A stretch of DNA of 64,000 nt from Undibacterium sp. GTDB taxonomy: Bacteria > Pseudomonadota > Gammaproteobacteria > Burkholderiales > Burkholderiaceae_D. A program made the translations under genes and the position numbers. The DNA is taken from positions 62,001 through 126,000 of the forward strand of contig JAUSNO010000018.1 of the NCBI GenBank assembly GCA_030645915.1, written 5' to 3'. A model generated the notes under the pieces. The model was not told the origin of the DNA and searched no databases. It saw only the letters and a list, made by a program, of their open reading frames with translations. This document shows, piece after piece, positions 4,002-47,738 of this stretch; within the stretch, counting starts at the first letter, position 1; each line of letters starts with the position of its first letter.

Positions 4002-4084
4002 GGCAGGCCCACCACGCACTGTTCATGCGCCTTTGCAGCCATGCCGGCCTGCAGACCGCATGGGGATTGCGTGGTGGGCCTGCC
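4002..4084. repeat. REP-like palindromic element, copy A
   Basis: A perfect 17-bp inverted repeat (4002-4018 with 4068-4084) encloses a nested palindrome, CATGCG (4024-4029) with CGCATG (4057-4062), around a CC-GGCCTGCAG core. Six other intergenic sites in the window share the core pattern CGCACT.TCCATGCG ... GGCCTGCA..CCGCATGG.GATTGCGTG. A T-rich run follows, so this copy may also act as a terminator for the TonB receptor gene. Confidence 0.75.
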
Positions 4085-6543: not shown

Positions 6544-6614
6544 GTACTTCTCCCTGCGTTGATCTGACATTGTGCCGATATTGTGCCGATCCAGCGTTAC
6601 CAGTCTGACTCTTA

Positions 6615-6790
6615 AACCGAGATTTTCGATTAGACGCACCAGAGGTGCTATTTGAGCGCTGACGGCGCATTTTCAGTCATTTTTGCCGTTCTTCGTTGCT
6701 CATGGCTAGCCATGAGCGCCTCATTCACGCCAAAACTGCCTCGAAAAGTGCATCCGTCATCATCTCAAATCCTAATGGAAATTCTCGGTT
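6615..6790. mobile_element. MITE-like 176-bp element, copy 1
   Basis: This is the reverse complement of a second 176-bp copy at 37807-37982, at roughly 80 % identity by eye. The ends are imperfect inverted repeats (AACCGAGATTTTCGATTAG at the left; the right end reads the same with two changes on the other strand), with TTAA at both edges. It holds a perfect 20-bp palindrome (6698-6717) and a small hairpin GCACC-AGA-GGTGC (6636-6648). There is no coding capacity, as expected for a non-autonomous element. Its right end overlaps the stop codon of pcm. Confidence 0.8.
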
Positions 6791-7439
6791 AAAAAGTAAA
6801 TGTCGACGCCGGTGCTGCCTGCGACAGGCGCTGCACTGAAGTCTCAAATAAATTAATGGTATTGAAAAATAATTCGGATTCGCGGGTGATGAGCTGCGCC
6901 TCCATCACCGGCGCTTTACCGACGATCACAAACAGTCTGCCGCCGTTGGTCAATTGCTTTTGCAATTCATCCGGCAGCACCTCCAAGGAACCATTGACGA
7001 CGATCACATCAAATGCGTTGATATGTTTTGCCGTTAAGGCGTCGCCCCATTGCACGTCCACGTTCGTCACGTGGTTCTCACGCAGATGTGTTTCAGCCAT
7101 CGCTTTGATTTCAGGATTGGCTTCCATGACTGTCACATGTCTTGCCTGATGTGCCAGCAAGGCCGCCAAATAACCGCTACCGGCACCAATGACCAAAACA
7201 GTTTCTTGTTTTTTGGCCGCCACTGCTTGCACAATGTGCGCCTCGATCTTGGGGCTGAGTGCGTGCGCCCCGCCTGGCAAAGGCAGCTCGGTATCAAAAA
7301 AAGCCAGGCTCTTTTGATTTTCCGGGAAAAAATTCTCACGCTTTACCAGGGCCAACAATGCCAATACCTCCTGGTCACCGACATTCCAAGGACGGATTTG
7401 CTGTTCTATCATGTTGAAACGGGCTTGTTCGATATTCAT
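6789..7439 (-). CDS. pcm: Protein-L-isoaspartate O-methyltransferase family protein
   Basis: 216 residues. The N-terminus NIEQARFNMIEQQIRPW is typical of the short PIMT-like proteins that precede tolC in Burkholderiales. The SAM-binding motif I reads VLVIGAGSGYLAALLA at about residues 81-96, followed by the acidic VTVMEAN. Classical PIMT repairs isoaspartyl residues. Members of this subgroup diverge from E. coli Pcm around the substrate site, so repair activity is assumed from family only. The stop codon TAA is formed where the gene meets the end of the 176-bp repeat element, so the present C-terminus may have been set by that insertion. Downstream genes are rhodanese and tolC on the same strand. 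Confidence 0.85.
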   Translation of the reverse strand: MNIEQARFNMIEQQIRPWNVGDQEVLALLALVKRENFFPENQKSLAFFDTELPLPGGAHALSPKIEAHIVQAVAAKKQETVLVIGAGSGYLAALLAHQARHVTVMEANPEIKAMAETHLRENHVTNVDVQWGDALTAKHINAFDVIVVNGSLEVLPDELQKQLTNGGRLFVIVGKAPVMEAQLITRESELFFNTINLFETSVQRLSQAAPASTFTF

Positions 7440-15094: not shown

Positions 15095-16555
15095 ATGCAA
15101 AACAAGACTTCCGGGACCAGGTTTCCTTCCTCTTTTATCTGGGGCGTGGCGACCAGCGCCTATCAAATTGAAGGTGCCGCCGCTGTCGATGGCCGCGGCC
15201 CGTCGATCTGGGATACTTTTACCCATACCCCCGGCACCATTATTGACGGCAGCACGGGCGACGTCGCCTGCGACCACTATCACAAGTACGCGGAAGATGT
15301 CGATCTGATCGCCTCGCTCAACGTCAACGCCTACCGTTTTTCAATTTCCTGGTCGCGCGTGCAAGCGCTGGGGTACGGTGCCTGGAATGAAAAGGGTTTT
15401 GAATTCTATTCGAAGTTATTAGACAAGCTGGCTGAAAAAAATATTGCCGCCCATGTCACGCTGTATCACTGGGATTTGCCGCAGGGATTACAAGACCAGG
15501 GCGGCTGGCTCAACCGCGAAACCACAGCCCGCTTCGCAGAGTACGCGGCAGAAGTGGCGCGTCGCTTCGGCAAGCGCATCGCCACCATCGCCACCCACAA
15601 TGAACCGTGGTGTACGGCCAACCTGGGTTACGGTAATGCGCAGTTTGCGCCCGGAGTTGCCGATACGGCACTGGCATTGCAAGTGTCACACCACTTGCTG
15701 CTGTCGCATGGCCTGGCAATGCGGGCGATGCGCGCGGTGTTAGGCGCAGATGATGGTGCGGCCAAACTGGGGATAGTCCTCAACCAATGGCCGGCAACAG
15801 CCGCGACTGATTCACCCGAAGACCGGGCAGAGGCGGAGTGGGAATACGCACGCTCGGTACAGTGGTTCATGGACCCGATTTTCAAGGGCAACTATCCGCA
15901 GAAAGCGCTTGCCAGAATGGATCTGAGCAAGTTTGAGGTGCACCCCGGCGACATGGATGACATCCGGCAGCCTATCGATTTTCTGGGCGTCAATTATTAT
16001 TTCCGTGCATTTGTCAGTACAGAAACCCCACCCCAAAAACCTGCAGGAAAATTAGGTTTCAGCGATATGGGATGGGAGGTTTATCCGGATGGCCTGACCG
16101 ATCTGCTGCTGCAATTGAGACAGGAATATCCAGCCTTGCCGCCGATTTACATCACCGAAAACGGCATGGCCGTAGCGGATGAAATGAAAGACGGCAAGGT
16201 CAGCGACGAGGTGCGCATCAACTACGTGCGCGTGCATCTTGAGGCCATGCACGATGCCATGGCAAAAGGGGTGGATGTGCAAGCGTACTTCTACTGGAGC
16301 CTGCTCGATAACTTTGAGTGGAATTCAGGCTACGCCAAACGTTTCGGCCTGATCTATGTCGATTACGCCACGCAAAAACGCACGATGAAAGAAAGCGCAT
16401 TTTGGTATCGCGATGTCGTCGCTGCACAAAGAAATCTGGTGCAACGCGAATCATCTGGCACATCGCAAAAAGAGCCACATCCGGCGTTGAACGACAGAGA
16501 TTGCCGCCCTGAGCTGGCTAAAATAAATAACGGCAAGCCTGAGATGCACACCTGA
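15095..16555 (+). CDS. GH1 beta-glucosidase
   Basis: 486 residues from the ATG at 15095 (an in-frame TTG at 15077 is also open). The N-terminal signature FIWGVATSAYQIEGA is that of glycoside hydrolase family 1. The acid/base Glu is in HNEPW (about residue 170) and the nucleophile Glu in YITENG (about residue 355). The C-terminal WSLLDNFEW motif supplies sugar contacts. There is no signal peptide, so it acts on imported beta-glucosides or cello-oligosaccharides in the cytoplasm. Its promoter carries a LacI-type operator, and the regulator is transcribed divergently. After the catalytic domain there is a tail of about 40 residues that is polar and not typical of the family, reaching into the repeat that follows. 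Confidence 0.93.
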   Translation: MQNKTSGTRFPSSFIWGVATSAYQIEGAAAVDGRGPSIWDTFTHTPGTIIDGSTGDVACDHYHKYAEDVDLIASLNVNAYRFSISWSRVQALGYGAWNEKGFEFYSKLLDKLAEKNIAAHVTLYHWDLPQGLQDQGGWLNRETTARFAEYAAEVARRFGKRIATIATHNEPWCTANLGYGNAQFAPGVADTALALQVSHHLLLSHGLAMRAMRAVLGADDGAAKLGIVLNQWPATAATDSPEDRAEAEWEYARSVQWFMDPIFKGNYPQKALARMDLSKFEVHPGDMDDIRQPIDFLGVNYYFRAFVSTETPPQKPAGKLGFSDMGWEVYPDGLTDLLLQLRQEYPALPPIYITENGMAVADEMKDGKVSDEVRINYVRVHLEAMHDAMAKGVDVQAYFYWSLLDNFEWNSGYAKRFGLIYVDYATQKRTMKESAFWYRDVVAAQRNLVQRESSGTSQKEPHPALNDRDCRPELAKINNGKPEMHT

Positions 16556-16556
16556 G

Positions 16557-16626
16557 ACGCACTATCCATGCGCTTTTCCAGCCACACTGGCCTGCAAGGC
16601 GCATGGGGGTTGCGTGCTGGCAGGGC
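16557..16626. repeat. REP-like palindromic element, copy B
   Basis: Contains ACGCACTATCCATGCGC ... GGCCTGCAAGGCGCATGG then GTTGCGTGCTGG, matching the other copies. It starts right after the GH1 stop codon, between convergent genes. Confidence 0.75.
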
Positions 16627-23521: not shown

Positions 23522-23590
23522 CCAGCACGCCCTATCCATGCGGGTTTCCAAGGCATATGTCTGCAAACCCGCATGGATAGGGCGTGCTGG
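23522..23590. repeat. REP-like palindromic element, copy D (26-bp perfect arms)
   Basis: Positions 23522-23547 and 23565-23590 are perfect inverted repeats of 26 bp with a 17-nt loop; the arm contains CCAGCACGCCCTATCCATGCG. It lies between convergent genes and is the most symmetric of the seven copies. Confidence 0.85.
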
Positions 23591-23616
23591 CGTGGTGCTT
23601 TTTTAGTTTTTAGCAT

Positions 23617-31910: not shown

Positions 31911-31981
31911 GCCAAGACGCTTGCTGCATGCGCCTTTGCGGGCAATATGGCTGGCAAGGCGCATGCGCATTGCGTGTTGGC
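31911..31981. repeat. REP-like palindromic element, copy E
   Basis: GCATGCGCCTTTGC pairs with GCAAGGCGCATGC, with the outer arms GCCAA/TTGGC and ATTGCGTGTTGG as in the other copies. It lies between the convergent YkgJ and MscS genes in a 402-bp gap; the rest of the gap holds only the possible MscS tail described at 32082. Confidence 0.7.
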
Positions 31982-37711: not shown

Positions 37712-37806
37712 TCTGGTTCTCCAGGAAAAATAGTCCTTCAATATAGAACTCCGCCTGACAGCGCGATTGCGCAATGTCAAAGAATTGCCTGTGGCGCAGA
37801 GAATTA

Positions 37807-37982
37807 AACCCAGATTTTCCATTAGGATTTGCGCTGATGACGGATGCATTTTTCGAGATAGTTTTGATGCGAATGAGACGCCAATAGCGAGCTATTGGCA
37901 ACGAAGAGCAGCAAAAGTAGCCGAAAATGCGCCGTCAGCACGCAAATAGCACCGCAGGTGCGCCTAATGGAAAATCTGGGTT
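37807..37982. mobile_element. MITE-like 176-bp element, copy 2
   Basis: Perfect 20-bp terminal inverted repeats, AACCCAGATTTTCCATTAGG (37807-37826) and its complement (37963-37982), with TTAA at both edges. Inside are the hairpin GCCAATAGC-GA-GCTATTGGC (37880-37899) and GCACC-GCA-GGTGC (37950-37962). It aligns without length change to the reverse complement of 6615-6790. It lies between the divergent Met-rich and SNF2 genes in a 350-bp gap and has no coding capacity. Confidence 0.85.
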
Positions 37983-38061
37983 AATCATCAGAACCGGTCT
38001 CATCAATTGCACCAGTGCAAAGGGAATAGCTTAAGATGCGAGGCAGAAATACAGGATACGA

Positions 38062-47670: not shown

Positions 47671-47738
47671 AACACGCACTGTCCATGCGGGTTTCCAGCC
47701 TACCTGAGCTGCAAGCCGCATGGGGCTTGGGTGCTGGC
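47671..47738. repeat. REP-like palindromic element, copy G
   Basis: ACACGCACTGTCCATGCGGG ... GAGCTGCAAGCCGCATGGGG then GGGTGCTGG, the same arms as copies A, B and D. It lies just downstream of the RlmL-like gene and upstream of the Bcr/CflA gene. Confidence 0.75.

Follow-up and report, generated by a model that had tools for sequence, protein, structure and literature searches.

A 172-bp MITE of Undibacterium with IS1380-family ends and a conserved folded core

MITEs are a known kind of mobile element, and their hairpins are usually regarded as a by-product of joined ends. ERIC and Correia are short palindromic repeats, like the Undibacterium MITE described here, from which they differ in ends and sequence. 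The ends of IS1380-family elements begin with CC, and ISEcp1 is a member of this family. A 5-bp duplication is listed for another member, IS1247 (PMC3281130), and we met no IS1380-driven MITE in the parts of PMC3281130 and PMC11578231 available to us. MITEPye1 of Paracoccus yeei is a MITE with IS-like ends, direct repeats and a long hairpin, as is the present element, but it is related to IS1182, occurs in one to three copies and, in the accessible part of its description, is given no cross-phylum core (PMC11578231). The QMITE copies of Coxiella, also short palindromic repeats but with other ends and sequences, yield small RNAs; the part of that report available to us holds no selection test on source lineages (PMC5896051). 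The nearest named candidate relative, known here from the description in a review, is Chunjie, a mostly intergenic MITE of Geobacter uraniireducens (Chen et al. 2008) with terminal and direct repeats, a length of 178–235 bp, and one plus 37 copies together with 57 partial ones (PMC10969869).

The window, which is the whole 64,000-nucleotide stretch of Undibacterium DNA analyzed here, contains two inverted copies of the present element. The element shares its 17–19-bp ends with IS1380-family elements that carry a transposase scoring above the family cut-off, but differs from ISs of this family (e.g., IS1247 and ISEcp1) in being too short for a transposase gene and in having a core dissimilar to that of the three ISs compared. 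Its family also has 232-bp and 178-bp-spaced forms, which resemble the size range reported for Chunjie, outside Geobacter and the Deltaproteobacteria. The present family may belong with Chunjie, the two being compared by published description and not by sequence. An earlier note on this DNA, made from the letters alone, knew of no described family, and database and text searches bear this out, with the reservation that Chunjie is a possible relative. At the gathering score, Rfam returned only a tRNA elsewhere in the window, and nothing at E values up to 1 for positions 37780-38010. The end sequence, in four spellings, had no match in a full-text literature search, and searches for MITE or IS1380 together with Undibacterium found nothing relevant. 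The features of the two copies are as follows.

37804..37808, no strand: left target-site duplication, TTAAA
37809..37980, plus strand: the MITE, 172 bp, in the orientation used in all structure work
37809..37826, plus strand: left terminal inverted repeat, CCCAGATTTTCCATTAGG, the same 17–19 bp being present at both ends of the ISs L151 and L235
37827..37963, plus strand: conserved structured core, 137 positions matched by the R1 and R2 models
37880..37899, plus strand: apical stem-loop, GCCAATAGCGAGCTATTGGC, helix 7, with both-sided changes in 6 of 9 pairs
37949..37961, plus strand: side hairpin, GCACCGCAGGTGC, helix 8, with both-sided changes in 4 of 5 pairs, outside the long palindrome
37963..37980, minus strand: right terminal inverted repeat
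37981..37985, no strand: right target-site duplication, TTAAT, with one mismatch to the left one
6612..6616, no strand: target-site duplication TTAAA, left of the second copy
6617..6788, minus strand: second copy, of another subfamily, with CCGAG ends (139.8 bits with R1)
6789..6793, no strand: target-site duplication TTAAA, right of the second copy

The two copies align without gaps at 82% identity over 179 nt, in keeping with the inverted identity of about 80% and the unchanged length noted earlier. The 20-bp ends of the 37.8-kb copy are perfect repeats, and those of the 6.6-kb copy differ at two of the first 19 positions, both as previously described. With up to three mismatches allowed, the window contains four end motifs, whereas shuffles predict 0.15. 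The flanks of the two copies are dissimilar (45% and 50% in forced 95-nt alignments). The core, the last position of which (37963) is the first base of the right terminal repeat, scores 143.2 bits with model R1 and 156.2 bits with R2, both of which include this copy. The 172 bp hold at most 57 codons, and the open reading frames of at least 100 aa that touch the element enter it from outside, which agrees with the claimed lack of coding capacity. The window also contains a second, unrelated family of palindromic repeats of about 67 nt (CACGCACTGTCCATGCG..CGCATGGGG.TTGCGTG), listed here on its own line.

4012-4078, 16555-16621, 23525-23591, 31915-31981 and 47672-47738: the 67-nt repeat family, comprising the reference copy and four others with 64–82% identity to it

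The boundaries of the element were determined from 136 distinct full-length elements that had been picked by their ends alone. The flanking 5-mers are identical in 100 of these, differ at one position in 26, at two in six and at three in four, while shuffled partners give 22.6 perfect 5-mers on average and 36 at most. With the ends placed at CC and GG, the repeat is perfect at 5 bp in 100 of the 136 elements, at 4 bp in five, and at 3 or 6 bp in none. TTAA and TAA were rejected as targets, as only the 5-bp reading yields equal flanks with these ends. At least 11 of the 100 perfect 5-mers deviate from TTNAA at an outer base; therefore, all five bases belong to the target, and an element that includes AA..TT and makes a 1-bp duplication is excluded. 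Since the duplication is 5 bp long, the element runs from CC to GG and measures 172 bp in the window. The inverted pair that the earlier note had outlined as a 176-bp unit edged by TTAA is thus real, but the mobile unit proper is 172 bp long, and the repeat at its edges is the 5-bp TTNAA. The duplication is perfect at the 6.6-kb copy (TTAAA/TTAAA) and matches at four of five positions at the 37.8-kb copy (TTAAA/TTAAT); among the own-genome copies measured, it is perfect in only 18 of 26.

Comparison of empty and filled sites, which the earlier note had proposed, gave an exact pair for a 171-bp relative located between kfrB and kfrA on the IncP plasmid pYKBU009. Removal of this element and one TTTAA leaves a 240-bp string that is matched exactly in pUO1 of Delftia acidovorans. 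At the 6.6-kb site, the insert is absent from all five congener loci that were aligned (29 were fetched), with diverged intergenic DNA and blurred exact boundaries. The two congeners aligned at the 37.8-kb site are without alignable intergenic DNA and hence uninformative. A plasmid search with the whole element as the query had no match; with the ends only, it returned pYKBU009 and one Borreliella record, the weak match of which was taken as chance. So were 11 stretches from a scan of viral contigs, none of which had two ends facing inward.

The host genome (G000; 4.17 Mb in 39 contigs, 99.79% complete) contains 29 full-length copies, two copies cut by contig ends and four smaller pieces, which amounts to 35 loci with 40 of 56 candidate stretches scored. 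The genome-wide search suggested earlier thus yielded many more copies than the two in the window. They form two subfamilies, with 90–100% and 79–84% identity to the 37.8-kb copy. The intergenic placement reported for the window applies to all 27 copies examined of the 29 full-length ones: each lies outside open reading frames of at least 120 aa, and in three cases a neighboring frame enters the element by 22–92 nt. Host contigs C11, C13 and C38 break off within or at a copy, a common effect of repeats on assembly. Matches were found in 17 of the 60 genomes searched, namely in the host itself, 15 of 35 congeners and one of 24 genomes from other families of the order. A model search across the phylum matched two of 249 genomes, including the host, and carries little weight, since 13 candidate stretches were scored per genome. 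Copies of 172–174 bp are present in Geobacter and in Deltaproteobacteria MAGs.

A large set of copies was found in the 3.1-Mb genome G318 of Gallionellaceae UBA2239, where scoring of 150 candidate stretches gave at least 140 core-model matches, of which the 123 listed all lie at distinct places. Some G318 copies follow each other head to tail at a spacing of 178 bp and share a single 5-bp duplication between them, which looks as though the duplication of an older copy had been the target of a newer one. There is also a class of elements of about 232 bp that has the same ends and a different interior. It occurs at many places in genome G015, where 62 end motifs in forward and 57 in reverse orientation often form pairs spaced about 232 bp apart. 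Mini forms of 54–93 bp, which have both ends and are flanked by perfect duplications, suggest that movement does not strictly require the full core, unless they were shortened by deletion after insertion.

L363 166-516, L364 134-484 and L365 115-465: head-to-tail copies in G318
C26:53844-54079 and C39:32205-32440: elements of the 232-bp class in G000, the former with a perfect duplication
L047 1503-1578, L150 5905-5964, L194 6533-6586 and L135 4326-4418: mini forms

A full-length element with the same termini and a transposase, which the earlier note had named as something to look for, was found in other genomes, one of them an Undibacterium. An exact scan of the named genomes for TTNAA followed by the end gave at least 106 loci, and the 80 examined for pairs of ends included two in which the ends lie 1496 (L151) and 1517 bp (L185) apart. 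Their open frames of 476 and 479 aa score 254.4 and 262.6 bits, respectively, against the NCBIfam IS1380 cut-off of 180, and match Pfam DDE_Tnp_1_4. The ends of L185, which comes from strain UKL13-2, match the terminal repeat of the MITE except for a differing third base. The Undibacterium MAG G025 contains a complete 1517-bp element (L235) that has ATAAA on both sides and encodes a 249.9-bit IS1380 transposase. All three ISs have both ends and matching duplications. Genome G323 has five further places with matching duplications and seven intact transposase copies of two kinds; G314 and G316 have the IS ends with unequal flanking 5-mers. The MITE has only the 17–19-bp ends in common with L151, L185 and L235, and elsewhere just 10–15-base matches. 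Near one end of the ISs, upstream of the transposase gene, lies an inner palindrome (CTAATGGAAGCCATTAG and similar), possibly an operator or a further binding site.

L151 from 3748: inner palindrome of this IS
L235 up to 1594: inner palindrome of this IS

A search of the host genome itself for a transposase of the IS1380 type gave zero matches. Such a transposase is present in only two of 43 genomes of the genus, and is broken in one of them; NF033539 had no match above the cut-off in 41 genomes (the host, 24 congeners and 16 others of the order, a set that does not include G025). The core was found in ten of 14 genomes searched with the core model. Six of these ten also contain the transposase: G314, G316, G318 (fragments), G320 (pieces at contig ends), G321 (broken) and G323; the remaining four, G000, G315, G317 and G319, have the core without it. 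Of the four genomes without the core, two (G322 and G325) have the transposase. Across the 14 genomes there is no clear association between the MITE core and the transposase, which occurs in six of ten genomes with the core and in two of four without it, and their present co-residence is not the rule. As the transposase was not found in their own genome, the host copies are probably immobile unless an IS of the IS1380 type arrives.

The interior of the element folds. Both strands of the 37.8-kb copy form a single long hairpin, with energies of -88.7 and -82.1 kcal/mol and z scores of -12.4 and -10.5, and none of 200 shuffles folds as well. Covariation was measured in an alignment of 22 copies that were hand-picked from 33 non-redundant ones plus L074; seven copies of the Methylotenera type and five with inserts or odd ends were omitted. 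The 22 copies come from Undibacterium, other Burkholderiales, Comamonadaceae, Gallionellaceae, the plasmid, a Methylotenera MAG, Geobacter and other Deltaproteobacteria. The consensus fold pairs 95.8% of 1249 cells, and slid structures used as controls pair just 34–44%. At least one both-sided change is present in 33 of 57 pairs, compared with 21.7 in shuffles, and 175 cells show such a change, compared with 46.7; for either measure, none of 500 shuffles is as high. The two end helices are nearly invariant, as would be expected for a transposase binding site, and the inner helices and the side hairpin covary.

To avoid circularity, model R2 was built from 14 betaproteobacterial copies only. 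Of 16 Deltaproteobacteria-type loci (from Geobacter, Oryzomonas, Syntrophus, Syntrophorhabdaceae and other Deltaproteobacteria MAGs), six match R2 over all 137 positions with 50–75 bits and E values of 1e-9 to 6e-16; these copies, from Geobacter and other Deltaproteobacteria MAGs, lie in four MAGs in which the assignment of single contigs is not certain. The other ten loci, which had been picked by the end motif only, have no R2 match, and neither do the three IS loci. The bar for R2 is 45 bits, the score reached by the wrong strand of a true copy owing to the palindrome. Locus L074, from another family of the order and outside R2, clears it with 96.5 bits. The Methylotenera copies (29–43 bits), the plasmid copy (44.6), Thiomonas L170 (43.9) and L228 (43.6) lie at or below the bar, and for them R2 alone is no proof of membership in the core family. 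From Undibacterium to the distant Geobacter, the core has retained its fold despite changes in sequence.

The mode of this conservation was traced by parsimony on a FastTree tree of 84 distinct short copies, counting changes away from a Watson-Crick pair. On internal branches, which represent copies with descendants, 74 of 97 changes are compensated, i.e., they end in another Watson-Crick pair, compared with 26 of 161 on terminal branches. Internal branches exceed terminal ones in all five branch-length bins (28/32 versus 8/45 in the bin of 0.02–0.05), and the contrast is stable across three derivations of the structure and two tie rules, and within the genus or the host genome alone. The tree is rough, the copies are related and hence not independent, and part of the contrast could also result from gene conversion, whether between copies or between arms. 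The data suggest selection on propagating copies and not on copies in place. Because compensated changes prevail on internal and not on terminal branches, we infer that the fold matters for propagation.

Of the pair changes, 89 exchange a Watson-Crick pair directly for a different one, 37 give G·U, 19 give A·C and 44 give some other mismatch. When G·U pairs are barred from the structure prediction, G·U exceeds A·C in the plus orientation by 64:19 cells and 37:19 events (p 0.022). On internal branches the ratio is 9:0, or 9:2 with the other tie rule, and with a structure fitted to the other strand it is 10:3, which is not significant (p 0.09), or 10:5 with the other tie rule. These ratios hint at a preference for the plus strand at 37809-37980 that is not robust.

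Several other explanations of the locus were weighed. Two inverted copies in one window might stem from the duplication of a 176-bp segment of a single chromosome, the outcome that the earlier note had set against its own reading. The flanks, however, are unrelated, the genome contains 35 loci, the family makes target duplications, and a relative has an exact empty site on a plasmid; segmental duplication is ruled out by the further copies and the unlike flanks, and we give it practically no weight. It is unlikely, though by far not to the same degree, that the element is a structured RNA gene or RNA-level regulator riding on IS1380 ends, with selection for the plus-strand RNA of 37809-37980. 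Strong covariation, which includes the side hairpin outside the palindrome, and the excess of G·U over A·C in the plus orientation speak for such an RNA. Decay of copies in place is, however, mostly uncompensated, which makes it less likely that every copy serves the host; there is no clear orientation bias relative to neighboring genes (12 of 18 tandem-gene cases in the host are co-oriented with the element), the strand signal varies with the structure used, and the element is without an Rfam match. The earlier note had also offered a mobile structured-RNA element as an alternative; with a fold conserved by covariation, the element may be one, though this is the less probable reading.

The fold could also be functionless, its palindrome being kept self-complementary by arm-to-arm template switching or gene conversion. 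Template switching during replication is known to correct long imperfect palindromes, and the many direct changes from one Watson-Crick pair to another would fit such correction. Yet correction should hit every copy, and terminal branches are mainly uncompensated in every length bin. Moreover, the length is kept, with 71 of 128 elements measuring exactly 172 bp, and the fold with its side hairpin is retained in both betaproteobacterial and Deltaproteobacteria copies. We consider a functionless fold as improbable as the RNA gene.

The reading of the locus as a non-autonomous, MITE-like element, already advanced in the earlier note, is borne out by the multiple copies, 5-bp duplications, plasmid empty site, intergenic placement and transposase-bearing partners. 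From the observed ends, duplication, empty site, partner ISs and fold, we infer mobilization in trans and a role of the fold in propagation: the element is very probably a MITE that is moved in trans by an IS1380-family transposase and has a separately inherited fold that aids its propagation. The transposase, supplied in trans, would recognize the CC(C/G)AGATTTTCCATTAGG ends and move the 172-bp unit to intergenic, AT-rich TTNAA sites, leaving a 5-bp duplication. The interior is no leftover of the examined ISs but a separately inherited fold of about 137 nt, in which one long imperfect hairpin bears an apical stem and, close to one end, a small side hairpin. In source lineages, compensatory changes preserve the fold, whereas single copies, once inserted, decay. 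The fold may aid propagation, for example, as a one-strand hairpin in replication or excision, or as a transcript; its acting form may be RNA, single-stranded DNA or a cruciform. Beyond this, we speculate, with considerable doubt, that the core is a one-strand structured nucleic acid, either a transcript or a single-stranded DNA hairpin, that aids copying, is inherited apart from the IS in at least two phyla, and has borrowed its IS1380 ends.

The interior of the present MITE is unrelated to ISs with the same ends and is kept by paired changes over a phylum-scale distance, and its changes behave as if selection acts only on propagating copies. The role of a MITE's fold thereby becomes testable. 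Through the element, the IS1380 family, to which ISEcp1 belongs, is connected with a natural MITE system able to reach high copy numbers and with a plasmid insertion caught by empty-site comparison.
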